Positions 3-25,654 of a stretch of 29,790 bases of DNA are shown piece after piece. Made by a program: the position numbers and the translations under genes. Every line of letters begins with the position of its first letter. Position 1 is the first letter of the stretch. Source of the stretch: a virus; IMG/VR virus record IMGVR_UViG_3300028384_000443, positions 1 to 29,790 of that record; one strand, 5' to 3'. The notes beneath the pieces are model-generated. The model was given only the letters and a program-made list of their open reading frames with translations, searched no databases and had not been told where the DNA came from.

Positions 3-854
3 TTTCCTTCTCGCACCCCATTAGAGACTAATGAAGTACGTGAAGCTAAAGAAAAGCTACGCAACTTAGGTTTGTCTGTTGATGATCCTGCGTTTATGAG
101 AGAGTTGTTAACTACGTTGTCAGGTACTGATAACATTATTGCAGCATTACAGGGTGGTATAGAAGCTACTGGTGATGTGTCAGCTAATGTTAGTAATCAA
201 TTACGTGAAGCATACTTTAACTTTATCAATGAAGCTGTAGTGTTACCTCAAGCTGCTAACCGTCCATTGATTTATCAAGATCCAAGATACTCAATGTTCA
301 ACCAGTTCCAAGGTTTCATATCTACATTCTCAGCTAACCACATACCTCGTATGTATGATGAGTACTTACGTCGTGGTTCTCCTGCAATGAAGTACAACAC
401 ATACGCTATGATGATGACTATGATTATGTTAGGTTTTGCATCACAGTATCTAAAGGATCTTATCAAGCATGGTAAGATTACCTATATCTTTACGGAAGAA
501 GATTTACCTGGGATCTTAGAATCAAATCCATACTTAGATCCTAATGAAATGATCCAACGTGGATTGACATCTACAGGTATCATTGGTGTAGCTGAACGTC
601 CATTAGAGTGGATGTTCCCTATCTATGAACAACGTACTAGTGGTCCTGTTGATTGGTTCACTACAACGTTAGCAGGTGAGTCTGCAATGCTTTCTAATCT
701 AGGACGGATGGGTAAAGCTGCAGGTAAGTTTATTGAAGGTGAAGGTGAAGAAGGATTGTACCAAACCTTTAAGATGAGTCCTGTAACTGGACCATTTACA
801 GCAAGTAACAAAGCATTATCTAAGGAGATAGTGGATTTAATTGGAGGTGACTGA
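3..854 (+). CDS. C-terminal end of a large internal virion / DNA-ejection-type protein (5' truncated)
   Basis: The frame is open from base 3 with no stop, so the 260-aa reading from the TTG at 72 is only the tail of a longer protein that starts before the window. It contains a Gln/Asn/Pro stretch (VLPQAANRPLIYQDPR), a possible membrane-active Met-rich hydrophobic segment (MMMTMIMLGFASQYL, near bases 408-452) and a Gly/Glu-rich segment before the end. Tails of this kind occur in giant structural or ejection proteins of marine podoviruses, but I assign the role from position and general resemblance only. The stop TGA shares one base with the ATG of the next gene (TGATG), so the two are translationally linked. 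No enzymatic motif is visible in this part. Confidence 0.7.
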   Translation, partial: FPSRTPLETNEVREAKEKLRNLGLSVDDPAFMRELLTTLSGTDNIIAALQGGIEATGDVSANVSNQLREAYFNFINEAVVLPQAANRPLIYQDPRYSMFNQFQGFISTFSANHIPRMYDEYLRRGSPAMKYNTYAMMMTMIMLGFASQYLKDLIKHGKITYIFTEEDLPGILESNPYLDPNEMIQRGLTSTGIIGVAERPLEWMFPIYEQRTSGPVDWFTTTLAGESAMLSNLGRMGKAAGKFIEGEGEEGLYQTFKMSPVTGPFTASNKALSKEIVDLIGGD

Positions 855-3800
855 TGTCAAAACGTATAGTTAGTGGTAAGGAAGTGGGGGTTAAAGATGA
901 ACTCGTCACTGTCAATACCCCAACTACACCAACAGAAGAACTACAACAACGCACACCTCAAGTTAATCCACTAGATAACTTTGGTAGTTTAGTTGAATCT
1001 GCTGTAGGTCCTGCAGAAAATTCATTTGATGCATACATTAATGAACAAGAACGTGCTGCTAAAGAAGAAGAATTAGCTCAGCAACAACAAGCTGAGGCAG
1101 CAACGTTAGATGATTTAATGGCTATTAACCAACAAGCTATTGAAGAGCAACAAGCAAGGCAACAAGCTGAAGAAACTGTGTCACCAATGGAGATGGTGCA
1201 AGATCCTGAAACAGGGATGTTTTCTAGTACTGGTAGTCGTATAGGTCAAGAGACAACTCAACCTTGGGACTTCAGAGTTAAGGGATCTTTTCAAGCACAA
1301 GGACGTGATGGTGGTTTGAATAATCGTGCTGTAGGTATGCAGGAGTACTTAAGTAATCCTGAGTCTACTATGAGAAGTCTTGTGTCAAATCGTGGTGGTA
1401 ACATTAATAAATTGTTTACCAACATGGGATTGTTTAATAATGAAATCAATATGATTGATCCTATGGCTGCTGCTATTATATCTATGACTACTGAAAACTA
1501 CATTGCTGATGTAGCTGAGGGTGAGACTAGATTAACTGCAGCTGAACAACCACGATCATTAGTGTTTATGGGCAGGGATGAAGCAGGTGAGTTTGTTAAG
1601 CTAGATGAACAAGATGTTCAAAGAGTACCAACTAAACCTGAAGATGTTAAGATTACTAAAGCAGCACAGAATGAACAGCTAGGTCGTCAGATATACCGTG
1701 ACATACAGAGAGCACGTAACTATCAATCAGGTCGTCCTGTTGATCAGTACACTGATATTAATCGTGATGATGCTACAGTGCTAGGTGATATGGCTAAGGA
1801 ATTCTTTTACGAAGCTAACAAACAACCTGATGGTTCGGAGCTGATAACCCGGACGGTTAACCCTGAGACTAAGCAGGTTGAGTTTGGTATATCTCCTGCA
1901 ATGTATGAGATGTTAAAGCAAGGTGCAGGATTCCGTAAGCGTTTGTTCAAACGTAAAGTTATTCGCCCTCAAAAACTACCAATGAAAAAGCTACGTGGTG
2001 ATACTAGACTTGAGCGTCGTCGTGTAACAGGTGGTCCTCAACGTCTAGCAGATCGTGTAGAAGAAGCTATGGATAACCAGAATAGTGTAGCTCATGTCGT
2101 TGATACAACACGACATAAGATACTCTTAGCTTCTGCGATACCTGCACTTATGGTTGCTAACAATAGTATGTTAGAATCTGATCCTGTGTTACAAGCATTT
2201 GGTAATGCAGCAGGTGTTGGTAGTGATAAGCTAAATGAGTATCGTGCTACAGAAACTTATGAAAGACGTAAGGTTGAAGCTGATCCTAACTATAGATCAG
2301 ACTATGATGCTGATGAACAGATCAGAGTAAAGCGTAATGATTTAGCACAACAATTGTTTGGTATTGCTACTGAACGTGGTAGTGCTAACTACTTAACTTA
2401 TTACCTACAATCTTTTGCAGGTCGTATGGCTGTACAACAATCACACTTTGATCCTATGACAGGTAAGATGGTTAGATTTGTTACACGATCAGCTGTACCT
2501 ACTGCATTAGTTCCTGGGTCTAAACTTACTAATGAAACTGCATGGGATGCATATGCTTTAGTTATTGGTCTTAACGGCATTAGTGCTATGACTCGCAAAG
2601 AACGTCAACGTGCTATGAAAGATCAAGCAGCTAAGCTTGAAGCTTGGGGTAAAGAACTTCAGAATATCTATGGAAAGATTGATGATGCACAGGTTGAAGC
2701 TGTAGCTGATGCTATTGCTAAGGGTGTTAATCCTAAAAGCCCTGAGTTCCCTAAACTTCCTATGCCTGAGTTTGATGTTAACAATCAGACACACATGGAG
2801 ATACTAGAAGAAGTTAATGATCGTGGTGAAGATGGCTTTGCATTCATTGATGGACTGATGGATTTTGCAAAGTTCCAAGATGCTCAACGTAATAATCGTA
2901 CACACTACTCATACATTAACCCAACAGTTGATGGTAAAACTAATGGTCTTGCAGCTAATGCAATGCAGTTAGGTGATATGACATTGGCTAATATGGTTGG
3001 TGTAACTAGATCAGAAGGATCTATGTATGCAGTAGATCAGGATAAGGATATCCGTGATGTGTTAGCTGAAACTCTTACTGGTCCTAATGGTATTCTTGAA
3101 AGAAAGATTCCAGGGTCTATTGATCCAGAGGATGCACAAAAGCTTAGAGCTTATGCTAAGGTATTGTTTTCATACAGACCTCTTAATAAAGAGACTACTA
3201 TGACTTATGGTTATGGTAAACTAATGGAAACATTTGGAGAGTTGCTTGACAAGTATGGATACTTGATTGCAGAAGATGCTAAGACTAAACACATTGCACC
3301 AATACATCAATGGCTCACAGGGTTAGATAAAGAAACTAAAGCTAAATATAACGGTTGGTTAATGTCTACATATGCACAAGGTATGGTAGAGGTTATGTCT
3401 GCTGAAGGTGTAGAGTCTCGATTCTTAATGTGGGGTGTTGCTACGCTAAGTGCAATTGCAGATGTACCATTCTCTATTAGATCACCTATGGGACATTGGA
3501 TGTCTTACGGTGGTATGGTTAGAGATCCTAGTAAAGATGTTGATGTTAAGTATGGTGTTCGCCCTATCGGTGAAACTAAACGTACTGAGCGTAAAGCATT
3601 TATCTATGGGTCTAAGCCATCCGCTGCTGCAGGTAAGTCTAGATCTCGTTATAGCGTAAAGGAAAGTGACGCTGAGCTTATAGATAAGACAGGTAAAGCT
3701 ACAGATGTTAAAGAAGGAATTGGTTATCGTGAGTTCTATGAAGAAGTTGGTGGTGCTGCGTGGGGTGCTGCTGCTGTAGGTCCTATCCAATCTGTTGATG

Positions 3801-4450
3801 GAGCAACAGTTGTATCAGTATTCTCAGGTAAGTCTTGGGATAAACTTAATGCTAACACTAAAGGTAACCCTTATGTTATGCAAGTGTATGATGCATTCAA
3901 GACTGATATTGGTAGTTTAGATACTCTTTACAATGAAGTTAATAATAACTGGTTTGATATCAATATGGAGTGGTCATACTTGAAAGAAGCTAAGCGAGCT
4001 TACAAGAGAGCTAAAGCTGCATTTGAAGAATCATTTAAAGATATGCCTAAAGATGCACGTGTTAACCTTAGTGATTACAAGATGATTGATTCATTGTTAA
4101 GTGATGAAGATGGTGTGACTAAGAAAGGAGCACCTAAACGATTAGTTAAGAAGATAGCTAAGCTCACACCTTACTTGAATGGATATCGAGATGGTATGGA
4201 TCGTTGGTTAGAAGCTGAGCAGTTTGCTTTAAGTATTATGAAGGCTAGTAATTTAAACAGTCAGTCATACGGCATGGTTCCTGTGCGTGATATAAAAGTA
4301 TTCTACTTACAGATGTTTAAACTTCTTAATCTTGAAGGCAGATTAGACTACATGATTAAGCTTACAGAGAAACGTAAAGCTGAATTAAAAGCTAAAGTTA
4401 AATCTCAGATAGCTAAAGGTGAATTGATAGCACAATATCATGACCATTAA
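854..4450 (+). CDS. Candidate virion-associated single-subunit RNA polymerase (N4 vRNAP / T7 RNAP superfamily)
   Basis: A 1198-aa protein in the structural module, started by GGAGG six bases before the ATG. The motifs of a T7-type polymerase appear in the right order. S520-F-A-G-R524 stands in the DxxGR position and is followed by FDPMTGKMVR, like T7 FNPQGNDMTKG. Motif A is V-D693-G-K-T-N-G, with D693 as the first metal ligand. Motif B is R775-x3-K779-x7-Y787-G788, exactly the T7 R627/K631/Y639/G640 spacing. Motif C is V-Y1012-D1013-A-F-K-T-D, with D1013 matching T7 D812 and Tyr replacing His811. A-to-B is 86 residues and B-to-C is 234 (94 and 181 in T7; longer in N4 vRNAP from memory). Residues 1-180 are Gln/Glu-rich without polymerase motifs and may serve packaging or ejection. 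The location after an ejection-type gene suggests that it travels in the capsid and transcribes incoming DNA. Catalytic family: fairly sure. Virion location: inference. Confidence 0.75.
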   Translation: MSKRIVSGKEVGVKDELVTVNTPTTPTEELQQRTPQVNPLDNFGSLVESAVGPAENSFDAYINEQERAAKEEELAQQQQAEAATLDDLMAINQQAIEEQQARQQAEETVSPMEMVQDPETGMFSSTGSRIGQETTQPWDFRVKGSFQAQGRDGGLNNRAVGMQEYLSNPESTMRSLVSNRGGNINKLFTNMGLFNNEINMIDPMAAAIISMTTENYIADVAEGETRLTAAEQPRSLVFMGRDEAGEFVKLDEQDVQRVPTKPEDVKITKAAQNEQLGRQIYRDIQRARNYQSGRPVDQYTDINRDDATVLGDMAKEFFYEANKQPDGSELITRTVNPETKQVEFGISPAMYEMLKQGAGFRKRLFKRKVIRPQKLPMKKLRGDTRLERRRVTGGPQRLADRVEEAMDNQNSVAHVVDTTRHKILLASAIPALMVANNSMLESDPVLQAFGNAAGVGSDKLNEYRATETYERRKVEADPNYRSDYDADEQIRVKRNDLAQQLFGIATERGSANYLTYYLQSFAGRMAVQQSHFDPMTGKMVRFVTRSAVPTALVPGSKLTNETAWDAYALVIGLNGISAMTRKERQRAMKDQAAKLEAWGKELQNIYGKIDDAQVEAVADAIAKGVNPKSPEFPKLPMPEFDVNNQTHMEILEEVNDRGEDGFAFIDGLMDFAKFQDAQRNNRTHYSYINPTVDGKTNGLAANAMQLGDMTLANMVGVTRSEGSMYAVDQDKDIRDVLAETLTGPNGILERKIPGSIDPEDAQKLRAYAKVLFSYRPLNKETTMTYGYGKLMETFGELLDKYGYLIAEDAKTKHIAPIHQWLTGLDKETKAKYNGWLMSTYAQGMVEVMSAEGVESRFLMWGVATLSAIADVPFSIRSPMGHWMSYGGMVRDPSKDVDVKYGVRPIGETKRTERKAFIYGSKPSAAAGKSRSRYSVKESDAELIDKTGKATDVKEGIGYREFYEEVGGAAWGAAAVGPIQSVDGATVVSVFSGKSWDKLNANTKGNPYVMQVYDAFKTDIGSLDTLYNEVNNNWFDINMEWSYLKEAKRAYKRAKAAFEESFKDMPKDARVNLSDYKMIDSLLSDEDGVTKKGAPKRLVKKIAKLTPYLNGYRDGMDRWLEAEQFALSIMKASNLNSQSYGMVPVRDIKVFYLQMFKLLNLEGRLDYMIKLTEKRKAELKAKVKSQIAKGELIAQYHDH

Positions 4451-4738: not shown

Positions 4739-6904
4739 TCACGCAAAGAAGTAGTCTGACTTCTTTACTTTATTAATATCTAAAGTACCTAACTCAGGTC
4801 TTTCTATAATTCCTTCATAGGTATTTAATATGCTACGTTCAATAACTTCATAGTAGTTATCCTGATCGTACATCTGTACGAATATATGTTTAGTTAAGTC
4901 AAGTAGATCATCTACTTCACTAGCATGTGTAGAATAGCTATCATGGATAGCACCAAAGGCACCACCCCAGTTAGCAATAACCAAAGCCATGTGACTTGCA
5001 TCAAGACTATGGATATAGTTTGGAGAGATACCACAAGCAAATCCTCGTTTGTCTACTGAGTCTGTTTCAACAACAGCTCTGTGTGTAATCAGACCACGTT
5101 TACCATAACCTGCTATTGTGCCCTTCTGGGTTATAGACTTAGTATGATAGTTGTAGTATTCAACAAAGAAACCAGATGGTGTTACCCACCTGATGTTGTC
5201 ATCTGTTTCTACAATAGCTGCTGCTAGTTTCTGAAGATACTTCATAGTCTTTAGTGGACCAGTACATGTCATCTCAATTGCTTTAATTAAATCTCTTGAG
5301 AATCCCATACACATTTTATCATCGATGCAGTACTGTTTATCCATACCTTCTTTACGTAGATCATTCACCATGTTCTCAGCAATCTTCTGAGCACCTGCAG
5401 AGTAAGCTCGTGTCATACTACCACGTTTAGATATACCTTTACGTATCTTCTTCATAGGCATACGACTCAGTATGTCAGATCTAGATTCATCTTTAGTAAT
5501 ACTAATGAGTCTCTTTGCTGTTTGAACATAGAAATCTTGTTGTATGTCTACAGGTACAAGACCTACAAGTTCACCTGTACGATAGTCTTTAGAGATAGCA
5601 CCTAAGTGCTGCCACCCGTTGTTACTACCATCGATTGGGATAGGTAGACCAGAGTAATACACACCATCTGAGATAATGTAGTTGTTAATCTCATGACACA
5701 CAGCAAGATAACTTACAGGTTTCTCTGCATTCATGTGTATGTTATTCAACTCAGCTGTTAATTGAATCTCAGTTAAGTGTTGCATTGTCCACTCAATACG
5801 ATCAGCTAACACCATCTTATCTACAGAGATATCTTCAAGACCTTCTGATTCTAAATAGGATTTATAATCTGCACTACACCATTCAGGGATCTGATCTATC
5901 TTATAACTCTGATTAAATGAACTAGCTGCGTGGATACACATCCAATCAAACCCACGTTCATCTACAGCTTTCTTCTCATGGAATAAGAAGAGTCCTCGTG
6001 CTGTATCAGAACCTTGGAAGTTAAACATTGTCTCTCTATTGTAGACTCTACCTCGATAGTCAAAGTCCATGAGTGAGTAGAACTTCTTACCTAATAACAT
6101 CTCAGCTTTACTTAGAGTAAAGTCCAACTCAATCTTCTTAGATCGTCTACGTTCTTCTTCATGTTTATCTTTACATGGTACATCAGTTACAATCTTCTCT
6201 GACTGTAGTTTAAGTGCATTGAATACTTCTTCATTGATACGCCAAGGAGTCTGCTGTAAATGGTTTATAGCCTTCATAGCTGGCATATCCTTTAGGCTTG
6301 CACACTTCTCATGCTGATCAAAGCTCCACCCCTTAACAATTGGGTAGCGTCCTACAATCTCACCATCTCTTTCTACACGTTGCATCACACCGTGTACGTC
6401 TTTAGGTCTATCAAAGACTGTACCTCGTAGCCTATACTTGGATAGTTCTTCTGGCATCTGACCAAAATCCCTAACCCATTTATCAGTTACTGTAAGAATA
6501 GTGATAGAGTCTACAACATCTACTTCTTCCTTTTCTTTATTCTTAACTTTCTTTTTACCTAACACTCTACGTTCAATGTTGATGTATTCATTTTGATAGA
6601 ATGCTTCTATATACAAATCACCAATACGTACATGATCATTCCATTGGAGTTCATCATCGTACAAGAGTCGAGCTATCTCAACTCCTATCTTAGTGGATAC
6701 TTGAGTGAGCTTAGCTGTTCCTACTGGATCATCAGTTTTATCTCGTGTAAATGCATGACCTATAATGTCGTATGCAATCACACTTGTCTGTGGTAATATA
6801 GAATCTACATCACCATAATCTTTTAAGAATGCTACACCAAAGGAAGGCTTACCTCTTTGAGTAAGCTTCCCCTTAATGTAACCTTGAATGAGTTCTAAGC
6901 TCAT
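4739..6904 (-). CDS. T7-like single-subunit DNA-dependent RNA polymerase
   Basis: 721 aa from the ATG that follows GAGGACTGAT; an in-frame TTG four codons upstream overlaps the primase stop and is less likely. It shows D282-Y-R-G-R286 followed by FNFQGSDTARG, motif A P-I-D425-G-S-N-N-G-W-Q-H, motif B with K493 and Y501, and motif C I-H654-D655-S. In T7 these positions build the two-metal active site (D537, D812) and the nucleotide-binding O-helix (K631, Y639). The protein is about 160 residues shorter than the 883-aa T7 enzyme, mainly upstream of the palm, so the promoter-binding N-terminal domain is reduced. Two positions differ from T7: Lys489 (after Arg488) stands where R627 is, and Ser502 replaces G640. 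It probably transcribes middle and late genes from the T7-like promoters near 17230, 22665 and 23375. Confidence 0.96.
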   Translation of the reverse strand: MSLELIQGYIKGKLTQRGKPSFGVAFLKDYGDVDSILPQTSVIAYDIIGHAFTRDKTDDPVGTAKLTQVSTKIGVEIARLLYDDELQWNDHVRIGDLYIEAFYQNEYINIERRVLGKKKVKNKEKEEVDVVDSITILTVTDKWVRDFGQMPEELSKYRLRGTVFDRPKDVHGVMQRVERDGEIVGRYPIVKGWSFDQHEKCASLKDMPAMKAINHLQQTPWRINEEVFNALKLQSEKIVTDVPCKDKHEEERRRSKKIELDFTLSKAEMLLGKKFYSLMDFDYRGRVYNRETMFNFQGSDTARGLFLFHEKKAVDERGFDWMCIHAASSFNQSYKIDQIPEWCSADYKSYLESEGLEDISVDKMVLADRIEWTMQHLTEIQLTAELNNIHMNAEKPVSYLAVCHEINNYIISDGVYYSGLPIPIDGSNNGWQHLGAISKDYRTGELVGLVPVDIQQDFYVQTAKRLISITKDESRSDILSRMPMKKIRKGISKRGSMTRAYSAGAQKIAENMVNDLRKEGMDKQYCIDDKMCMGFSRDLIKAIEMTCTGPLKTMKYLQKLAAAIVETDDNIRWVTPSGFFVEYYNYHTKSITQKGTIAGYGKRGLITHRAVVETDSVDKRGFACGISPNYIHSLDASHMALVIANWGGAFGAIHDSYSTHASEVDDLLDLTKHIFVQMYDQDNYYEVIERSILNTYEGIIERPELGTLDINKVKKSDYFFA

Positions 6905-6912
6905 ATCAGTCC

Positions 6913-8565
6913 TCAACTATATGTGAAACCACCTGTACCTGACAGTCGTGTAGTTTCTGGATTATATAATGCGCTACCTGCATCACCAGTTTTACCTGTG
7001 AATCGTGACTTAAGTACACGCAATTGAATTGTGTTACGCTCAGTGTCATTCTGAGCTACTAGGTTACGTGCAAATGCAATGATGTCAAAGCTAATCTGTT
7101 TAATAGAACCAGAACCTTTGATGTCATCGATAGATGCAAGCTGACCTTCTTCAAATGATCTACCACCTAGTGCTTTACGTAGGTGAGAGATAAGACCTAA
7201 CCATACATTGTGTTTCTTTACAATCTTTAATAGGTCAGACATAACTTTATCTACAGCTTCATTACCAGATAGACCCTCAGCACCCTCTGATACAGCAATA
7301 GTAATGTGGTCAAGCACTAAGTACTTACACCCCATCAACGCCATGTATTCAATTTTATCGAGGAGCGAATCATCAGATACACTTCCTTGGTGATCGAGGA
7401 GAACAAGTCTTTCATCCTTAAACACCTTTTCATATCCTCTTCGTAGTTCCTCTTCTGTAACTGGAGGGTGTCCATGTAATGGTCGTTTAAGTGCCATGCT
7501 GATGAACTTCTCTGCGCTATCTCCGATAGATTCTTCCAAAGAAATGAGACCGACTTTATCTTCAGTCTTATCCAATAGATCAAGAACGATCTCTTTAATG
7601 ACAGTAGATTTACCACTACCAGTACCACTAGTGAATAGAGTAATCTCACCTTGACGAATACCTCCTAACTTTTCATTCAAACCACTTAAGCAATCAGGGT
7701 ATGGTACAGACTCTACATTCTGACGTTCTTTAAACTTATCCCATACAGCTTCACCTACAACAATACCTGCAGGACAATATGATTGTGCATCCCAGATAGC
7801 TGTGTTGACAGCCAGTGCTCCACTTTGTAGGTACAACTCTGACGGATCTTTAACAGGCAGCTTAGCAATCTTTACTTTATCAGCACCAATAATCTTTGCT
7901 GCTTGCTCTACTGCATTCTGACCTGCTTCATCTTGATCAAACATCAACACAACTTCTTTGAACTGACGTACCCAATCACGATTCTCAAGGATTGATTTAG
8001 TCATTGAAGCTGAAGGGATAGATACTACAGGGTAGAATCGATTGTACTTCTCGTACATAGATTGAGCTACAGTCATCGCATCTAGCTCACCTTCAGTGAT
8101 TACTAGTTTAGGACCACCACCTGCTACATTCTGACCAAATAGTTCTACACCTTTGAAGTCACCTACAACAGAGAAGTCTTTAGGTAATGCACGTTTCTTG
8201 TAGGCTACAACTGTACCATTCTTAGTATATGGATAGTAGTGAGCAGCAGGTTTGCCATCTTCATCTACCTCCATCTTCACACCGAAGTGATCTACGACTC
8301 GTTTAGTGATACCACGGCTGCTAATATTATAACTAGCGTAGTTAGTAATATCGGAGAGTCTATCAGTACTGATGAAGGGATTGGATTTAACATTGTTTAC
8401 AACTCCCATTTGGGTGTCCTCTGATTTAAAGTTAGTGTTACAAGAGAAGCAGTAGCTGCTACCATCTTCTCTGATTGCTCGTGCATCACTGCTGCCACAA
8501 GCTTTACATGGTTGTCTTGTTAATACAATTGGAGAGTTAGTTCCATTTGCGCTCGAAGATTTCAT
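6913..8565 (-). CDS. Primase-helicase, T7 gp4-like
   Basis: 550 aa. An N-terminal zinc ribbon C20-x2-C23-x15-C39-x2-C42 has the same spacing as T7 gp4. The TOPRIM primase core follows, with T-E158-G-E-L-D162 and F-D210-Q-D212 as metal-binding acids. A RecA-type hexameric helicase domain comes next: Walker A G-T-G-S-G-K319-S-T, a Walker B strand KYLVLDHI, and an SHLRK motif. The C terminus ends GGFTYS, a Phe-containing tail like the T7 gp4 end that contacts DNA polymerase, although it is less acidic. It would unwind DNA ahead of the polymerase and make lagging-strand primers. The start (8565) lies inside the preceding small gene, and the stop is eight bases before the RNA polymerase start. Confidence 0.97.
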   Translation of the reverse strand: MKSSSANGTNSPIVLTRQPCKACGSSDARAIREDGSSYCFSCNTNFKSEDTQMGVVNNVKSNPFISTDRLSDITNYASYNISSRGITKRVVDHFGVKMEVDEDGKPAAHYYPYTKNGTVVAYKKRALPKDFSVVGDFKGVELFGQNVAGGGPKLVITEGELDAMTVAQSMYEKYNRFYPVVSIPSASMTKSILENRDWVRQFKEVVLMFDQDEAGQNAVEQAAKIIGADKVKIAKLPVKDPSELYLQSGALAVNTAIWDAQSYCPAGIVVGEAVWDKFKERQNVESVPYPDCLSGLNEKLGGIRQGEITLFTSGTGSGKSTVIKEIVLDLLDKTEDKVGLISLEESIGDSAEKFISMALKRPLHGHPPVTEEELRRGYEKVFKDERLVLLDHQGSVSDDSLLDKIEYMALMGCKYLVLDHITIAVSEGAEGLSGNEAVDKVMSDLLKIVKKHNVWLGLISHLRKALGGRSFEEGQLASIDDIKGSGSIKQISFDIIAFARNLVAQNDTERNTIQLRVLKSRFTGKTGDAGSALYNPETTRLSGTGGFTYS

Positions 8566-11722: not shown

Positions 11723-12389
11723 TAAATTCCTCCCAAGATTGTAGCATATATAGTAGTTTGTAATCTCTAGTTGCTATACCATCTGGGTATCCATTATCAG
11801 CATACGCTTTTCGTACAACTCTTTCCATATCCTCAGTCTTTACACCTTCAAGAATCTTCTCAGCTTTCTTAGGACCAATACCTTTAATGCCTGGAATACC
11901 ATCAGAAGTATCACCTGTTAACCATTGTAACATCAATGACTTATATGCATCTACAGGTTCCATGTGATAGTGAAGATCTTTGTTGTAGTTGTAGTGTGGA
12001 CCTGGGATTTGATTTAGATCCTTATCAATATGGGCTAAGATAAACTGTTCACCCTTGTTGATACACTCCCAACACCAGATAGAACATAAGTCATCAGCTT
12101 CCATACCATCTGCTTGGATAGCGTTATACTTTTCTATCATGTGATTGTGAGCGTAGTTAAGTTTCTTCTTTAGATCCTCAGCAATCGGAGGTCGATTAGA
12201 CTTGTAGTCAGGATATACATCATATCGAAAGTTACCTTTACCTTTAACTGCAACACGTGGTTCACCCATAAAACACTGACCTTCAATGTTCAACATGATA
12301 TCTTTGATGTTCTTTCGGATATCTTTGTTAGAGTTAGCTGTTACAGCAGCCTTAAACAGAATACTATCTGCGTCAATTATAGTGTACAT
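11571..12389 (-). CDS. 5'-3' exonuclease / flap endonuclease (T7 gp6-like)
   Basis: 272 aa with the FEN family pattern: D6-A-D8 at the N terminus, a Y-x-D-Y-K-S-N-R stretch (58-66), E97-A-D99-D100, D122-K-D124, and LTGD160TSD163 followed by the helix-hairpin-helix GIPGIKGIGPKKAEKIL. It would degrade host DNA and remove RNA primers. Translation starts from a perfect AAGGAGG that overlaps the stop of the DNA polymerase gene. From about residue 222 the protein becomes an acidic, low-complexity tail (EEPEETKDDDSQDP) encoded by DNA that also encodes the start of the RusA-like protein, so this tail may be a by-product of the overlap. Confidence 0.95.
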   Translation of the reverse strand: MYTIIDADSILFKAAVTANSNKDIRKNIKDIMLNIEGQCFMGEPRVAVKGKGNFRYDVYPDYKSNRPPIAEDLKKKLNYAHNHMIEKYNAIQADGMEADDLCSIWCWECINKGEQFILAHIDKDLNQIPGPHYNYNKDLHYHMEPVDAYKSLMLQWLTGDTSDGIPGIKGIGPKKAEKILEGVKTEDMERVVRKAYADNGYPDGIATRDYKLLYMLQSWEEFNEYNKEEPEETKDDDSQDPSETPVDECDVGLEGQEEVQVDGVSGVSERDT

Positions 12390-17220: not shown

Positions 17221-17248
17221 CTTTCCTATAAGGGAACATATTCTAAGT
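17221..17248 (-). promoter_or_regulatory. T7-like phage promoter P1 (leftward)
   Basis: The minus strand reads GAATATGTTCCCTTATAGGAAAG. Aligned on the TATA-GG start, it shares about 11 of 17 upstream positions with the T7 consensus (AATA, G at -11, C at -7, TATA at -4 to -1, GG at +1/+2). Twenty bases (ACTTAGAATATGTTCCCTTA) are identical to P2. It lies about 30 bases before the ATG of the 127-aa gene. Confidence 0.85.
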
Positions 17249-17297: not shown

Positions 17298-17326
17298 GAG
17301 CGCGATGTCGGTTGACTAAAAATAAC
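17298..17326. repeat. GCGATGTCGGTT repeat, copy A
   Basis: A 29-base element with core GAGCGCGATGTCGGTT followed by an A-rich end (AAAAATAAC). It matches copy B (17351-17379) at 26 of 29 positions. No coding frame of meaningful length runs through it. Confidence 0.85.
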
Positions 17327-17350: not shown

Positions 17351-17379
17351 GAGCGCGATGTCGGTTAGGTAAAAATAAC
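17351..17379. repeat. GCGATGTCGGTT repeat, copy B
   Basis: Direct repeat of copy A, 53 bases away. In the leftward direction it comes directly after the hairpin terminator at 17387-17408 and supplies its T-rich tail (GTTATTTTT) before the AACCGACATCGC core. Confidence 0.85.
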
Positions 17380-17729: not shown

Positions 17730-17939
17730 TTAGTCCTCATACTCTGCTAAGCGTTTATTTTCCATGAATCGTTTAGCATCACGAATATCTTTGAATTTGA
17801 TATTGATACGTTTATCCCGATAGGTAACTTCCCAATAGTAGTCAGCGTATTCTTTTTTGAATAGCTGAATGTCACCTACACATTCTGAGCGATCATATGC
17901 TAGGATATAATCAAAGTTGATTCTAGGAAATGACAGCAT
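17730..17939 (-). CDS. Hypothetical protein, 69 aa
   Basis: Begins MLSFPRINFDYILAYD in a TGATG overlap with the Api92-like gene. Aromatic-rich with a basic C-terminal half (YRDKRINIKFKDIRDAKRF). No family recognised; no transmembrane segment. Confidence 0.7.
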   Translation of the reverse strand: MLSFPRINFDYILAYDRSECVGDIQLFKKEYADYYWEVTYRDKRINIKFKDIRDAKRFMENKRLAEYED

Positions 17940-18589
17940 CAGCAACCAACTGTGTGTGCGTTAGCCACCTGCTCGATGTCATACTCTAGAGCTTGACGGA
18001 TACTGTTAAGTTGTTGATCTTGTAGATCTTGCATCTCTTCGTATTGTACATCAGATAAGAAGTCACGTTCTTCATCAGTCCAATCATCGATGTCCTGAGT
18101 TTTAGGTGCAATTTTATCTGAGTAGTTATCGAGTATTGAGTTGACTAGATCATCCCAATCCCACTCTACATAGTCATACTGCTCACCTTTGTGGAATGCA
18201 TGAACACTGAACCAGTTAGGCATCTCATCTTCACAAGTCAATGTAATATATGAGTTAGGATCAGCTTCAGCAATCTCTTCTGAGATGTATGCAGCAAGAG
18301 GGATGAGACCACCCCAAGCAGAAGTCAGCATTGCGTAGCCTTCGTCATACTCATTTAAGTCTGCCCACTTAGCACCTACTTCGTTGAGGTAATACTCATA
18401 GTTGTAGTTGTGCTCATTTGCATTGGGCATGTTAAGACGATCTTTACGCATGTAAGATGCATCACCAATGTTATAGCTTTCAGCAGCATCAGGATCAGTA
18501 TCAGATACACGATTGCAGATAGTCATGAATGCTTCTAGTGCATCATCATTGCCGTAGACAGATATGTAGTTTGATACATGGTTAGCCAT
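17939..18589 (-). CDS. Api92-like / ferredoxin-fold phage protein, 216 aa
   Basis: The N terminus MANHVSNYISVYGND and the later Trp-rich motif (MLTSAWGGLIPL, then YVEWDWDDL) resemble the Api92/YubB-type ferredoxin-like family of phages and plasmids, whose role is unknown. It is highly acidic. The C-terminal 60 residues (WTDEERDFLSDVQYEEMQDLQDQQ) look like a long helix. Family call is tentative. Confidence 0.6.
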   Translation of the reverse strand: MANHVSNYISVYGNDDALEAFMTICNRVSDTDPDAAESYNIGDASYMRKDRLNMPNANEHNYNYEYYLNEVGAKWADLNEYDEGYAMLTSAWGGLIPLAAYISEEIAEADPNSYITLTCEDEMPNWFSVHAFHKGEQYDYVEWDWDDLVNSILDNYSDKIAPKTQDIDDWTDEERDFLSDVQYEEMQDLQDQQLNSIRQALEYDIEQVANAHTVGC

Positions 18590-18590
18590 A

Positions 18591-18764
18591 TTAGAAATCC
18601 TCTTGGATAATACAGATAGCTTGATAGTTGACGATAGGTCTACCTATGACTTCTACAAACTTTTCTCGTGCATCAAAACATTCATCCATAGAATTGAATG
18701 CAGCCATTTTGTTGACATCAACACGATCTCCAGTAAGTGCGATGTAGATAAGTAACCATTTCAT
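18591..18764 (-). CDS. Small hypothetical protein, 57 aa
   Basis: Reads MKWLLIYIALTGDRVDVNKM to CIIQEDF and ends one base before the next start. A short beta-alpha pattern with the segment AAFNSMDECFDAREKFVEV resembles small phage proteins built around a strand, a helix and a final strand. It fills the gap exactly between its neighbours. Confidence 0.65.
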   Translation of the reverse strand: MKWLLIYIALTGDRVDVNKMAAFNSMDECFDAREKFVEVIGRPIVNYQAICIIQEDF

Positions 18765-18766
18765 AA

Positions 18767-19132
18767 TTAGTCCATACGTGTTATGAAGTAATCACCTGGC
18801 TTATCCATTGGAATAGCTACTACTCCATATGGATATTGGTACATGAAACCAAAGTCAGTTGGGTACATAGCGTAAGGGTGGATGTCAGGATCATCGTCAT
18901 GAGATGAGATCCATTCACCATCTAGTCCTACAGTTGAACCTTCCATCTCATACAGTTTACCAAAGCCATACTTGTCTTCAAGGAAACTTTTTAAGTCACC
19001 AATATCATCAACAGTATCTGCATCGAATACCTGCTCAAACTCTTGAACCCAGAAAGGAATCATACCAAGATAATCTATAGCGTTATCTTTGTTGATTTCT
19101 GGGTAGTGTTCACCGTTCAGAATGATCTGCAT
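18767..19132 (-). CDS. Hypothetical protein, 121 aa
   Basis: GGAG precedes the ATG. Acidic and aromatic-rich; the C-terminal half (PYAMYPTDFGFMYQYPYGVVAIPMD) is dense in Tyr and Pro and probably beta-structured. It overlaps the preceding gene by 23 bases. Function unknown. Confidence 0.75.
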   Translation of the reverse strand: MQIILNGEHYPEINKDNAIDYLGMIPFWVQEFEQVFDADTVDDIGDLKSFLEDKYGFGKLYEMEGSTVGLDGEWISSHDDDPDIHPYAMYPTDFGFMYQYPYGVVAIPMDKPGDYFITRMD

Positions 19133-19472
19133 TTGTTACTCCAAGTAGTACACGTAAGTTAGTAGTTGCTCTGGTGATGTCATCAACAGTGTGTTTGATA
19201 CGTTCCATGTCTAAGCTGTTTCTTAGCTCAATTTCCATTAAGTCGATGATTTCATCAAACTTATCTTCTGGCATGATAAGGATATTCTTAGCAGGTTCAC
19301 CATTGATTTGGTATACTTCGACTAAGCTGTCAATAGAGACAGATACACCATATACTGAATCATAGTTGAATTCAGATACAGTAATTCCATCGTTATCGAT
19401 CTCTACATCAGAATCATGTAGGCGATCAGGTAAGTTTTTGAGGTCATTGAATAGATCATTCAGGGAAGTCAT
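19110..19472 (-). CDS. Hypothetical protein, 120 aa
   Basis: CAGGAACTTATC precedes the ATG. An N-terminal Asp/Leu-rich helix, a strand-rich centre (YGVSVSIDSLVEVYQING) and a long C-terminal helix. No family recognised. It overlaps the genes on both sides (23 and 17 bases). Confidence 0.75.
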   Translation of the reverse strand: MTSLNDLFNDLKNLPDRLHDSDVEIDNDGITVSEFNYDSVYGVSVSIDSLVEVYQINGEPAKNILIMPEDKFDEIIDLMEIELRNSLDMERIKHTVDDITRATTNLRVLLGVTNADHSER

Positions 19473-19701
19473 GATAAGTTCCTGCAGTTAGTATTGGTAA
19501 ATAGTCTTCGTAGTGCCAGTACAAAGTGTCATGGATTGTGGAGTAGTCGAGGTCTTCGAGATAGTCAGCCATGTCAGACCATTGATTGGTTGTTAGTTGG
19601 TGTCTATCATCGAATGAATCTCGATCCCACCACAAGAATACCATCTCATCTTCTGGCTTGTACCACTTTTGAAGTAGTTCAATCATTTTGTCTACACGCA
19701 T
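19456..19701 (-). CDS. Hypothetical acidic protein, 81 aa
   Basis: Starts after AAGAGATAAAC. Contains VFLWWDRDSFDD and a Trp/Tyr/His-rich C-terminal half (TLYWHYEDYLPIL). A pattern of this kind occurs in small phage proteins of unknown function. The end overlaps the following gene by 17 bases. Confidence 0.75.
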   Translation of the reverse strand: MRVDKMIELLQKWYKPEDEMVFLWWDRDSFDDRHQLTTNQWSDMADYLEDLDYSTIHDTLYWHYEDYLPILTAGTYHDFPE

Positions 19702-19703
19702 GT

Positions 19704-20318
19704 TTATCTCTTTTTGATGTGTTCATTGATAATACTATCGCCTTCATGACGGTAGCAACGTAAGCAGTCCATGCATTTTTGACCAGTACAGTTACCTTCT
19801 ACTGGATTATCTTTGGCAAGTACATTGAATACTTTATCGAAATATTTAGGTACTTGTATGATTGTATTTACTTTAGGATTAGAGTAAATAAGTATTAAGT
19901 TTTTAGGGAAGAAACTCTCTTTGTCAAGATATTTCTTGATAAGATCTTTACGTTTTGTCCATAACGCAAATGTAGTCTGTGGATTCTTCCAAGCAATGTT
20001 AGATAGATTGTAGAGGTGAGTCATGTTGATAAGCTCACCGTGACCATTGAATCGAAACCATGAAGCATTGATGACAGGTAGCGATTTGAGTGGAAGTACA
20101 TCTGACGATAACAGATCTGAGTTACGTTGGAATGCAGGTTGACAATTCTTACGTGATTTTGTCAACATAGATTGAGAGTAGCAATCCTTGCAGATACTAT
20201 CGCTCTGCTGCATCTTCTGACAGAATGAGTTAGTTACGGTATTAGTGTTGATAGCAGGAATACCATTAAGTTTACCCGACATGGTTGAAACATGTGGTGA
20301 CAATGTTACAGTTTGCAT
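19704..20318 (-). CDS. GP88-like cysteine-rich phage protein, 204 aa
   Basis: The N terminus (LSPHVSTMSGKLNGIPAIN, with NTVTNSFCQKM soon after) resembles the phage Gene Product 88 family, whose function is not known to me. Conserved-looking cysteines are C33, ICKDCYS (C43, C46) and, near the C terminus, a C-x4-C-x2-C-x2-C cluster (CTGQKCMDCLRC). The last has ferredoxin-like spacing and could hold an iron-sulfur cluster or zinc. GAGG precedes the start. The upstream gene ends on its first base. Confidence 0.65.
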   Translation of the reverse strand: MQTVTLSPHVSTMSGKLNGIPAINTNTVTNSFCQKMQQSDSICKDCYSQSMLTKSRKNCQPAFQRNSDLLSSDVLPLKSLPVINASWFRFNGHGELINMTHLYNLSNIAWKNPQTTFALWTKRKDLIKKYLDKESFFPKNLILIYSNPKVNTIIQVPKYFDKVFNVLAKDNPVEGNCTGQKCMDCLRCYRHEGDSIINEHIKKR

Positions 20319-20593
20319 TAGAATGCCTCATTGATTAGTTCTTTGAGTTGATCTTCCAGATCATTTTTAAAGTTTACTGTCGCAATAAGTTCCATGTGCG
20401 AGAAGTCTTTGTAAGTGATACCGTCGGCATAAGTGTCGTAGATATCTTGTAGCTCCGAATCGTATTTGTCGTTGCATTGCTGCATGACATTCTTGAGAAT
20501 CTTGTAGATACGTAGCACACTTTCTTTTACATGATCATCATGTAGTTCGTTGATATTACGTTGAACTTTGTCTTTCCAGTACGTTGTATCCAT
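20318..20593 (-). CDS. Hypothetical helical protein, 91 aa
   Basis: Starts after AGAGGATATA. Lys/Asp/Glu-rich with heptad-like leucines and isoleucines over residues 10-55, then a second helix (NDLEDQLKELINEAF). Possibly a coiled coil. Shares one base with the next gene. No family recognised. Confidence 0.75.
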   Translation of the reverse strand: MDTTYWKDKVQRNINELHDDHVKESVLRIYKILKNVMQQCNDKYDSELQDIYDTYADGITYKDFSHMELIATVNFKNDLEDQLKELINEAF

Positions 20594-20628
20594 TATATCC
20601 TCTATTTAGTTGAAGTTTTTGTAAAGCA

Positions 20629-20655
20629 TTATCCCGAGAATGGTCAACGGGATAA
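20629..20655. other. Intergenic hairpin with perfect 8-bp stem
   Basis: TTATCCCG and CGGGATAA flank an 11-base loop. Neither side is followed by a clear T-run, so it is more likely a processing or stability structure than a full terminator. It lies in the 87-base gap between two leftward genes. Confidence 0.6.
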
Positions 20656-20680
20656 CGCCTCCAGTGGCTAACAGCTCCAC

Positions 20681-20875
20681 TTACTTGGTGCTGATGAACT
20701 TACCAGTTTTAGTACAACGTGCTACGGACAAATAGCCTTTGTTGCTTGAGAATGTACCTTTATGAGCATAACGACTGGTGACACGACGGAATTGCACGTC
20801 AGAAGTTACAAGGTTTGGTGTACGATCTGAATGTTTACCAGTTAGTACAAAGTTTAGGAATTCATTGAATTTCAT
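20681..20875 (-). CDS. Small basic hypothetical protein, 64 aa
   Basis: Start chosen at MKFNEFLNFVLTGKHSDRTP because GAGGG lies before it. The C-terminal half is basic and Ser/Thr-rich (RRVTSRYAHKGTFSSNKGYLS), probably beta-stranded, and might bind nucleic acid. No family recognised. Confidence 0.65.
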   Translation of the reverse strand: MKFNEFLNFVLTGKHSDRTPNLVTSDVQFRRVTSRYAHKGTFSSNKGYLSVARCTKTGKFISTK

Positions 20876-20885
20876 GTTGTTGCCC

Positions 20886-21107
20886 TCAAGCAATGTTACG
20901 ATTGTAGTTAGAAGACCAGTTTAAGGTCTTGAATAGGATACGTGATTGTCCCACAATATCCATTGGTGATAAACCATGAGAAGCACATTGCTGTTCATAG
21001 TTACTGACGATGGTTTCGATAACCTCTTTGGTTAAGGTTTCGTCACCATATTCTTCTTCATACACACCACGAAGGTTGTATGCAAATTGACTATTTGTAA
21101 AAGTCAT
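20886..21107 (-). CDS. Hypothetical protein, 73 aa
   Basis: The start at MTFTNSQFAYNLRGVYEEEY is preferred over a longer Met-rich frame because GAGG precedes it. It overlaps the membrane-protein gene by 17 bases. A small helical protein with a central conserved-looking motif ETIVSNYEQQC and no known relatives. Confidence 0.65.
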   Translation of the reverse strand: MTFTNSQFAYNLRGVYEEEYGDETLTKEVIETIVSNYEQQCASHGLSPMDIVGQSRILFKTLNWSSNYNRNIA

Positions 21108-21294
21108 CATCATCCTCATCATTGAAGTAGTCTTGGTATTCTTCTTCTGATTCAAATTCTATTCGATCATTCATGTCGATAAAGAATACATCTTCTGGTA
21201 GAATTTTATTACAAATCCATGCAGCTGCATAACCTAAGACTAGGAATGGAGTAGCAAGGAAATAGGCTAAGGCAGGTGGTTTGTGTACAATCAA
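21091..21294 (-). CDS. Small membrane protein with acidic tail, 67 aa
   Basis: One transmembrane segment (PALAYFLATPFLVLGYAAAW) followed by a polar, very acidic C terminus (SEEEYQDYFNDEDDDDFYK). The apparent start is a TTG with GGGGGT upstream; no ATG is available before the membrane segment, so the start is uncertain. It is the first gene after the terminator that follows SSB. Holin, inhibitor or envelope-modifying functions are all possible. Confidence 0.6.
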   Translation of the reverse strand: MIVHKPPALAYFLATPFLVLGYAAAWICNKILPEDVFFIDMNDRIEFESEEEYQDYFNDEDDDDFYK

Positions 21295-21302
21295 GATACC
21301 CC

Positions 21303-21330
21303 CGCGATGTCGGTTAGAGTGAAAAATATT
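21303..21330. repeat. GCGATGTCGGTT repeat, copy C
   Basis: CGCGATGTCGGTTAGAGTG followed by AAAAATATT. It shares the core and A-rich end with the two copies near 17300-17380 and, like copy B, directly follows a leftward terminator hairpin. Confidence 0.8.
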
Positions 21331-21364
21331 AGGAGAACCCTAGCATTGCACTAGAGTTCCCCTA
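21330..21364 (-). terminator. Intrinsic terminator after the SSB gene
   Basis: A 14-position stem with 12 pairs (21330-21343 with 21351-21364), 7-base loop, then leftward AATATTTTTC. It begins seven bases past the SSB stop. Confidence 0.85.
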
Positions 21365-21370
21365 AGTGTG

Positions 21371-21841
21371 TTAGAACATGACTGCGATGTCACCTTCATC
21401 ATCTGAGGCATCTGCCCCTTCGATGACTGAGAAGCCACCTGCTGGGTTGTATTCCTCAAGTTGTACAACCTGCACTGCTACAAGTTGTGTGGCAATACCC
21501 TTGCGACCTGCGGTGTCATAAGGATATTGGAACAACTGCACATTGCCGATAGAGCCATTGCCGATGATAGCAGGATCTAACTCTTTTGTAGCAGCGTCTA
21601 CAACAAGCACTGGTTTGTTCGGAGTGCCATCCGCTTTCTTAGCTTTACGCTTAAGAGAGACAGTGAACTTGCCATCACGCTCTTTGACAGTGAGGTGATT
21701 TGCTGAGAGTTCATCTGCAACAGCTTTATCAGTAGTGGCAATCTGTAGCTCCCACTGTTCTGTACCGAATGGTGCAACAGGCTTGTCAAGTTTAGCCCAG
21801 TTGAGTTCTACGTTATCTACACGATAGTTACGTTTTTGCAT
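21371..21841 (-). CDS. Single-stranded DNA-binding protein, T7 gp2.5-like
   Basis: 156 aa from MQKRNYRVDNVELNWAKL, which follows AAGGGGAAT; the longer frame upstream lacks a site. The body has an OB-fold-like strand pattern (WELQIATTDK, FTVSLKRKAKKADG, NVQLFQYPYD, GIATQLVAVQVVQL). The C terminus is GADASDDEGDIAVMF, an acidic tail ending in Phe as in T7 gp2.5, where it contacts DNA polymerase and helicase. It would coat single-stranded DNA and coordinate the replisome. The neighbouring terminator ends its transcript. Confidence 0.85.
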   Translation of the reverse strand: MQKRNYRVDNVELNWAKLDKPVAPFGTEQWELQIATTDKAVADELSANHLTVKERDGKFTVSLKRKAKKADGTPNKPVLVVDAATKELDPAIIGNGSIGNVQLFQYPYDTAGRKGIATQLVAVQVVQLEEYNPAGGFSVIEGADASDDEGDIAVMF

Positions 21842-22650: not shown

Positions 22651-22678
22651 CCCTCCATTAAGGGAACATATTCTAAGT
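22651..22678 (-). promoter_or_regulatory. T7-like phage promoter P2 (leftward)
   Basis: The minus strand reads ACTTAGAATATGTTCCCTTA (identical to P1), then ATGGAGGG. The TATA of P1 and P3 is TAAT here, so its strength may differ. It is about 105 bases before the first gene of the early cluster (22548). Confidence 0.75.
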
Positions 22679-23362: not shown

Positions 23363-23384
23363 AATATGTTCCCTTATAGGAAGG
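23363..23384 (+). promoter_or_regulatory. T7-like phage promoter P3 (rightward)
   Basis: AATATGTTCCCTTATAGGAAGG on the plus strand, identical to P1 through GGAA. It points toward the terminase, portal and capsid genes, 268 bases before the terminase ATG. Confidence 0.85.
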
Positions 23385-23651: not shown

Positions 23652-25304
23652 ATGAAATCTACAGAAATAACAAAATTAATTAGGGAGAAAGAGAAAAGAA
23701 ATCTCTTATCTTCCTATAAAGATGACTTTGCTAAGTTTGCTGAGGAACAAATCCGTATTATAACCAAAGATGCTACACAAGGATTTGTACCATTTACCTT
23801 AAACTCAGCACAGAAGTACATCACAGAACAATTAGAGAACCAACTCAAAGAAACTGGAAGGGTTAGAGCGATAATCCTTAAGGCTAGACAACAAGGTATT
23901 AGTACCTATTGTTCAGGCAGAGTGTTTTGGAAGAGTTATTTCTCTCAGCATTCTCGATCTGTTATCATGGCGCATGATAGTGCGACATCAGATGCCCTCT
24001 TTACTATGAGTAAGAACCTTATCCAGAACATGGAGGGGGTACTCAAACCAGATGAGGAGAGATCAAATGCTAAAGAAATTATCATACGTAGCCCTGCGTT
24101 TCAAGACAAAGATGCTAAGAGTAGTTACAGGCTTTATACTGCGGGTTCTCCTGAAGCAGGTCGGGGTACTACACCTACTATTGCGCACCTATCTGAGGTT
24201 GCATTCTGGCAGCACGATGAAAAGATATTGGCAGGTTTATTCCAAGGTATATCTCAGGCTGAGGGAACTGAGGTTATCCTTGAATCAACTGCAAATGGTG
24301 CACAAGGGGAGTTTTATCGACTCTGGAAAGGAGCAGTAGCAGGGGAGAATGAGTATCTACCCATATTCCTACCTTGGTTCTGGACAGATGAATACAGACG
24401 TACAGCACCAGAGGGTATGGAACTTAGCTTAGAAGAAGAGAAGCTAAAAGAGAAACATGGATTAGACAACGATCAACTATACTGGAGACGATTAAAGATT
24501 GCTGAGGGTGGGGAACTTAAGTTTCGACAAGAGTATCCTGCCACTGCTGATGAAGCATTTATTGTCTCTGGTTCTAATGTCTTTAATTTGGAAAAGCTAG
24601 ATATGCTTATCCCAGAAGGACCAGTAAGGTATTCATCCTGGGATCCAAACAGTAAGATGTTTGATGAAAACAAAGAAGGAAGATTACACCAGTGGGCATT
24701 CCCAGAGTGGGATCAGCCTTACGTGGTGGCAGCTGACGTAGCTTTAGGTGTAGGACAAGACTACTCAACAGCTGTTGTCTTAAATAATAAATATGAGGTT
24801 GTAGCATTATACAGGGACAATAGGATAGATCCTAGTCTGTATGGTGAGTTACTATTTTATTTGTCTAGGTATTACAACAATGCATTCTTATGTGTTGAGA
24901 GTAATAGTATGGGTATTGCTACCCTACAGAAACTAGATGCAATGGGGTATGTCAATCTGTACAAACAAACTAAGATTGCTAATGTAAGTAACGATGAAGG
25001 TGAGAGACTTGGATTTCGTACTACATCAGCAACCAAACCTGTAATCATAGGCAACCTTAAGAATCTGATAGAAAACGAAGAGGTACGGATACCGTCACCT
25101 ATCATGATACAAGAGCTGAAGGACTATATTAGTACAGCCACAGGTAAGACTGAGGCAGCTCCAGGATCACACGATGATTCTGTCATGGCGTTAGCTATGG
25201 GATGTGAAGTATTAAGAACCCATTGGGATCGTCTACAGACTACTAATGTATCTTGGAAACACAAGATATCTGACTGGTCTCCTGATGATTCTAATTGGTT
25301 ATGA
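23652..25304 (+). CDS. terL: Terminase large subunit
   Basis: 550 aa, started after GAGGACATTAC. The ATPase domain has a Walker A of the Gln-Gln type, K77-A-R-Q-Q-G-I-S-T85, and a Walker B-like IAHLS-E182. The C-terminal RNase H-like nuclease has A-D362-V-A-L-G (first metal acid), C-V-E416-S-N (second) and H507-D508-D509-S (third). It packages DNA into the prohead and cuts it. The start is unusually far from any small terminase; a candidate is encoded at 16813 on the other strand. The stop overlaps the next ATG (ATGA). Confidence 0.96.
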   Translation: MKSTEITKLIREKEKRNLLSSYKDDFAKFAEEQIRIITKDATQGFVPFTLNSAQKYITEQLENQLKETGRVRAIILKARQQGISTYCSGRVFWKSYFSQHSRSVIMAHDSATSDALFTMSKNLIQNMEGVLKPDEERSNAKEIIIRSPAFQDKDAKSSYRLYTAGSPEAGRGTTPTIAHLSEVAFWQHDEKILAGLFQGISQAEGTEVILESTANGAQGEFYRLWKGAVAGENEYLPIFLPWFWTDEYRRTAPEGMELSLEEEKLKEKHGLDNDQLYWRRLKIAEGGELKFRQEYPATADEAFIVSGSNVFNLEKLDMLIPEGPVRYSSWDPNSKMFDENKEGRLHQWAFPEWDQPYVVAADVALGVGQDYSTAVVLNNKYEVVALYRDNRIDPSLYGELLFYLSRYYNNAFLCVESNSMGIATLQKLDAMGYVNLYKQTKIANVSNDEGERLGFRTTSATKPVIIGNLKNLIENEEVRIPSPIMIQELKDYISTATGKTEAAPGSHDDSVMALAMGCEVLRTHWDRLQTTNVSWKHKISDWSPDDSNWL

Positions 25305-25510: not shown

Positions 25511-25654
25511 ATGCGTTACAACGAACAACAGGTTTCTGAGCAGTCTAAAGAGACTAAAGAAAAGAAACCTACTACAACACCAAAGCAGGGGCAATACACG
25601 TCTTCTGATTTGAAGAAAACCAAAGGTATTATTACCGGAAGAGGTATTGTCTAA
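25511..25654 (+). CDS. Small basic hypothetical protein before portal, 47 aa
   Basis: A strong GGAGGTAACA ribosome site precedes MRYNEQQVSEQSKETKEKK. The first 30 residues are disordered and charged; the end is a compact SSDLKKTKGIITGRGIV. It overlaps the portal ATG by one base (TAATG). Probably a head-related accessory protein by position. Confidence 0.75.
   Translation: MRYNEQQVSEQSKETKEKKPTTTPKQGQYTSSDLKKTKGIITGRGIV

Follow-up and report, generated by a model that had tools for sequence, protein, structure and literature searches.

A predicted compact RNA polymerase of the N4 virion type, encoded beside a T7-like enzyme in an uncultured marine phage

The closest described relatives of the protein analysed here are the virion RNA polymerases (vRNAPs) of N4-like phages. 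In N4 the enzyme, gp50, is a single chain of about 3500 aa in which N- and C-terminal domains flank a polymerase core, the mini-vRNAP (residues 998–2103). In reference genomes the N4-like vRNAPs range from 2842 to 3820 aa, and split vRNAP genes have been reported for pSb-1 and AD45-P1 (PMC10654107). The encapsidated N4-type single-subunit RNA polymerase, or vRNAP, has been called unique to the Schitoviridae (PMC12633501). A survey of IMG/VR discarded matches shorter than 2500 aa, stating that nearly all T7-like polymerases were thereby removed (PMC10654107); with this cut-off the compact family described below would also be filtered out. Our search of the literature found no paper describing such a family.

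We analysed a 29,790-nucleotide IMG/VR record, referred to as the window in its full length. This fragment of an uncultured marine phage encodes a second, unannotated RNA polymerase besides an ordinary one of the T7 type. The first-pass annotation, made from the sequence alone, had proposed a polymerase gene in the virion module together with a complete T7-like enzyme on the other strand; the latter is indeed present and readily recognized by Pfam. The genes that matter for the argument are:

3–854, + strand: C-terminal 283 aa of a giant ejection-type protein, homologous to gp34 of Roseobacter phage CRP-7, upstream of the polymerase gene and cysteine-free
854–4450, + strand: predicted compact N4-type virion RNA polymerase, 1198 aa, cysteine-free, residues 1–149 predicted disordered, polymerase fold from about residue 150
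4739–6916, − strand: convergent T7-like single-subunit RNA polymerase, 725 aa (Pfam RNA_pol, E 1.6e-58)
23652–25304, + strand: terminase large subunit (terL), start of the virion operon
25654–27885, + strand: portal protein (SU10_portal), which fixes the phage group

CRP-7, a 58 kb podovirus, is the nearest isolate; its portal is 55% and its T7-like RNA polymerase 38% identical to those of the window. Each end of the window holds one end of the virion module, with terL and portal on the right and the ejection genes on the left, so about half of the genome, judged by CRP-7, is missing.

The 1198-aa protein carries the motifs of single-subunit RNA polymerases. SxxGR, VDG, R-x3-K-x7-YG and YD, noted in the first pass, all lie at the residues claimed in the translated reading frame:

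2411–2425, + strand: T/DxxGR motif S520-F-A-G-R524; R524 aligns with R424 of the N4 mini-vRNAP
2927–2947, + strand: motif A, V692-D-G-K-T-N-G698; D693 aligns with N4 D559
3176–3217, + strand: motif B, R775-x3-K779-x7-Y787-G788; K779 and Y787 align with N4 K670 and Y678
3788–3811, + strand: QSVDGATV with the invariant D982, equivalent of IHSLDASH in the T7-like enzyme
3887–3907, + strand: motif C, Y1012-D1013-A-F-K-T-D1018; D1013 aligns with N4 D951

The catalytic residues are spaced 169 (R–D), 86 (D–K) and 234 (K–D) residues apart. The corresponding distances, from motif positions, are 135, 111 and 281 in the N4 mini-vRNAP; in T7 RNA polymerase they are 112, 94 and 181. Searched as a single sequence against Pfam, PHROG, PDB sequences and, by tblastn, phages, the protein gave no meaningful match.

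The protein founds an unannotated family. A first relative, L084, was found via its neighbouring polymerase and more via portal-bearing contigs; a seven-member alignment used as query then matched 64 loci in IMG/VR, from which 58 distinct homologues were extracted. Forty-six are longer than 1000 aa (1128–1599 aa). Most of the 58 match the simple patterns DGKT[NH]G, K-x3-M-x-x-x-YG and [YM]DA[FV]. Family members are mostly 20–35% identical to the window protein, and R524, D693, G694, T696, K779, M783, Y787, G788, D982 and D1013 are identical in all 39 non-redundant homologues. PHROG 414, the T7-type RNA polymerase family, matches three of the seven members (E about 3e-7 to 4e-7) across motifs A–B or A–C. 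A profile of the 46 long members found no polymerase among PDB sequences; with the single-sequence searches also blank, the relationship requires comparison of profiles or of folds.

The fold was examined by structure prediction, as the first-pass annotation had suggested. In the AlphaFold model (pLDDT 76, pTM 0.77) the core is mostly above 85 and residues 1–149 are disordered; beyond these, the modelled chain has the palm-fingers-thumb fold of a single-subunit RNA polymerase. In a Foldseek search with this model, the 50 PDB matches listed are all single-subunit DNA-dependent RNA polymerases, including the T7, mitochondrial and N4 enzymes (N4 vRNAP among them), with E values of 1e-12 to 1e-15. 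The viral matches include annotated vRNAPs.

To which branch of these polymerases the family belongs is indicated by profile–profile alignment. With hhalign, the family aligns to 13 Schitoviridae vRNAPs with a probability of 98.8% (E 8e-17, a single comparison) over 717 columns of the N4 mini-vRNAP, and the register gives the residue pairs listed above, from R524–R424 to D1013–D951. Ten column-shuffled controls gave probabilities of 0–0.1%. The flanking N- and C-terminal domains of N4 vRNAP have no match in the family (0.3 and 0.8%). Similarity to the T7-like enzymes of the same phages is weak (63%, E 7e-5). In an unguided alignment of 69 sequences (39 from the family, 13 N4-like vRNAPs and 17 T7-like RNA polymerases), the R, D, K and D share columns across all three sets; the Y787 column holds F in one N4-like sequence. 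FastTree resolves the family, the N4-like and the T7-like sets as separate clades (support 0.977, 0.995 and 1.0 in an unrooted tree), and the branches joining the family and the N4 set are much shorter, 0.84 and 0.90, than that to the T7-like set, 2.69. The proposed pairing of a compact N4-like polymerase with a T7-like enzyme is supported, with the former in the vRNAP lineage.

The family resembles N4 gp50 and the other Schitoviridae vRNAPs in its polymerase core, motif set and catalytic residues, including the DGxTNG form of motif A. Both kinds of gene close the virion module and have ejection genes as neighbours, and both proteins are nearly or fully free of cysteine. They differ in size and architecture: family members are separate genes of about 1130–1600 aa without counterparts of the N4 flanking domains, compared with 3000–3800 aa in Schitoviridae. 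The first pass had stressed a separate gene a third the size of N4's. The 1198-aa length agrees with this, but split or shorter vRNAPs were already known in phages of the Schitoviridae type. In Alteromonas phage V19 (OP751378), the enzyme is split into gp28 and gp29 (gp29 2082 aa) and, as in our family, is not one 3500-aa chain; V19 gp29, however, retains a match to the N4 C-terminal domain (probability about 92–94%) that the window family lacks. The phages also differ: the window group has an SU10-type portal, a family A DNA polymerase, a ribonucleotide reductase (RNR) and a single-chain T7-like polymerase, whereas Schitoviridae have a two-subunit RNAPII. With a compact vRNAP and a single-chain T7-like enzyme where Schitoviridae have a giant vRNAP and two-subunit RNAPII, the window phage does not fit that family. 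Compared with T7-type RNA polymerases (PF00940, PHROG 414), including the window's own, the family has the fold and catalytic residues in common, but the profile similarity is weak, the clade is separate and the cysteine content differs about 150-fold.

The gene neighbourhood is highly regular. The polymerase gene ends the + strand virion module, and a convergent T7-like RNA polymerase gene lies downstream in all 58 homologues scanned. A gp34-like giant of about 1300 aa is encoded upstream wherever the contig has about 700 or more bases 5' of the polymerase gene. In CRP-7 the next gene upstream of gp34, gp35, carries a lysozyme-like domain, an arrangement that resembles podovirus ejection genes. 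The gp34-like protein weakly matches residues 325–449 of N4 vRNAP (hhalign probability 68%). As a candidate homologue of the N4 C-terminal domain it was rejected (0.1%). Separately, in L117 and L124 (13246–15770) the T7-like polymerase frame appears split in two, with about 330 bases between the parts, which may reflect an insertion or a frameshift.

Cysteine is almost absent from the family: five in 56,908 residues, and none in 41 of the 46 long members. N4-like vRNAPs have none in 44,850 residues and the gp34-like proteins one in 43,331, compared with 531 in 37,927 residues (14 per 1000) for the T7-like RNA polymerases of the same phages. This near-absence, like that in N4 vRNAPs and unlike the adjacent T7-like enzymes, points to a virion protein. 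Several virion proteins of CRP-7 are likewise poor in cysteine, so the trait argues for a virion protein and not for ejection as such.

Promoter-like repeats bear on when the gene would be expressed. The window holds three copies of AATATGTTCCCTTATAGGAAGG, where none is expected:

23363–23384, + strand: T7-promoter-like repeat AATATGTTCCCTTATAGGAAGG, ahead of terL and the virion operon
22651–22672, − strand: T7-promoter-like repeat, early-strand copy
17221–17242, − strand: T7-promoter-like repeat, early-strand copy

CRP-7 has five copies of a different version, one directly ahead of its T7-like polymerase gene. The repeat ahead of the virion operon suggests that the compact polymerase is probably expressed late; as the record is a 29.8-kb fragment, the link from this + strand promoter to the polymerase gene is drawn through CRP-7 and other relatives. 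The virion-protein reading of the first pass is favoured by where the gene lies, by the scarcity of cysteine and by a promoter that is probably late. In the window's early intergenic DNA no N4-type hairpin promoter (stem of at least 6, loop of 3) was found; 5-base stems are not discriminating. Another sequence, ACCGACATCGCG, is found between genes on the early (−) strand in three exact copies (17301–17312, 17354–17365 and 21303–21314), two of them shortly after terminator-like hairpins. Considered as a second promoter, it has no exact copy in the 195 loci examined.

The only cultured relative of the polymerase is gp33 of CRP-7 (MK613349, positions 17859–21566; L082), annotated as hypothetical. 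It has the same gene position, a similar length and no cysteine, and its R, D, Y, G, D and D are in register with the family. It differs in motif A (DG to DA) and motif B (K to R), substitutions that CRP-7 and eight relatives carry. Homology of this group is drawn from position and from alignment with the other groups, because hhalign gives just 19%. Structure prediction for the gp33 group (8 sequences) was uninformative (pLDDT 36.7). Among cultured phages, tblastn of six family members against 50,697 records found no intact enzyme; the only polymerases matched were T7-like, with no E value better than 0.7.

Taken with the fold and the alignments, these observations make it very probable that the protein is an N4-lineage vRNAP, encoded on its own in a phage that does not belong to the Schitoviridae, and probably packaged and injected for early transcription before the T7-like enzyme takes over. 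The compact polymerase would be made late from the virion operon, probably starting at the T7-like promoter, and would go into the capsid alongside the giant ejection proteins, whose genes lie directly upstream. Made at that stage, it could serve early transcription only if packaged, we infer. At the next infection it would enter with the DNA and transcribe the earliest genes, which lie on the opposite strand, the T7-like RNA polymerase gene among them. Starting at promoters of its own, the T7-like enzyme would then transcribe the genes for DNA metabolism and for the virion.

An active second polymerase for middle or late genes that stays in the infected cell and is never packaged would equally have an intact active site, and N4 too has a distinct second polymerase that acts inside the cell. 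Such an enzyme would hardly be expected to lack cysteine almost entirely while its T7-like neighbour in these genomes does not, nor to be encoded in every case where the virion module ends, adjoining ejection-type genes; it is also N4 vRNAP, not the T7-like enzymes, that the family most closely resembles. We consider this reading improbable. Still less likely is that the protein descends from a polymerase but is no longer catalytic and serves as a structural ejection protein. The CRP-7 subgroup, in which motif B has R for K and motif A has DA for DG, is what such a protein might look like, and there catalysis may be dispensable or altered; against this, none of the five catalytic residues (R524, D693, K779, Y787 and D1013) varies among 39 diverse members, mostly 20–35% identical to the window protein. 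As the hand fold is also found in family A DNA polymerases, some other right-hand polymerase or a primase might be imagined, but every one of the 50 PDB matches listed is a DNA-dependent RNA polymerase, and the K-x7-YG of motif B and the N4-type T/DxxGR region are typical of RNA polymerases, so that we give this idea almost no weight.

A packaged vRNAP relative beyond the Schitoviridae, coupled to a T7-like enzyme, would mean that the strategy of injecting an early polymerase may be more widespread. In the compact family the polymerase also occurs apart from the domains that flank it in N4, whose role in ejection and autoinhibition is under study, and it is small enough for direct expression and assay. 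More tentatively, a widespread marine podovirus lineage may inject a natural mini-vRNAP, of which the giant N4 enzyme might be a fusion with units that are separate here, an idea prompted by the weak match of the gp34-like protein to N4 vRNAP; on the same speculative footing, NADAR domains in some members could be injected cargo against ADP-ribosylation defences.

Four homologues (L125, L148, L166 and L159) carry such an inserted NADAR domain, of the ADP-ribose hydrolase type, with Pfam scores under the curated cut-off. In three the insert lies at about window residues 903–913, between motifs B and C, and in L159 near the C-terminus. L166 also matches, by tblastn, a DUF1768 protein of the crAss-like phage cr126_1 (E 2e-17). 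Two homologues, L194 and L195, are in contigs binned as Bacteroidetes and Dehalococcoidia metagenome-assembled genomes, probably phage contigs inside bacterial bins. In L145, four tandem 30-base units, ATGAAGACCCATATAAGAAATGGGAAGA, directly follow the polymerase gene (12250–12340).
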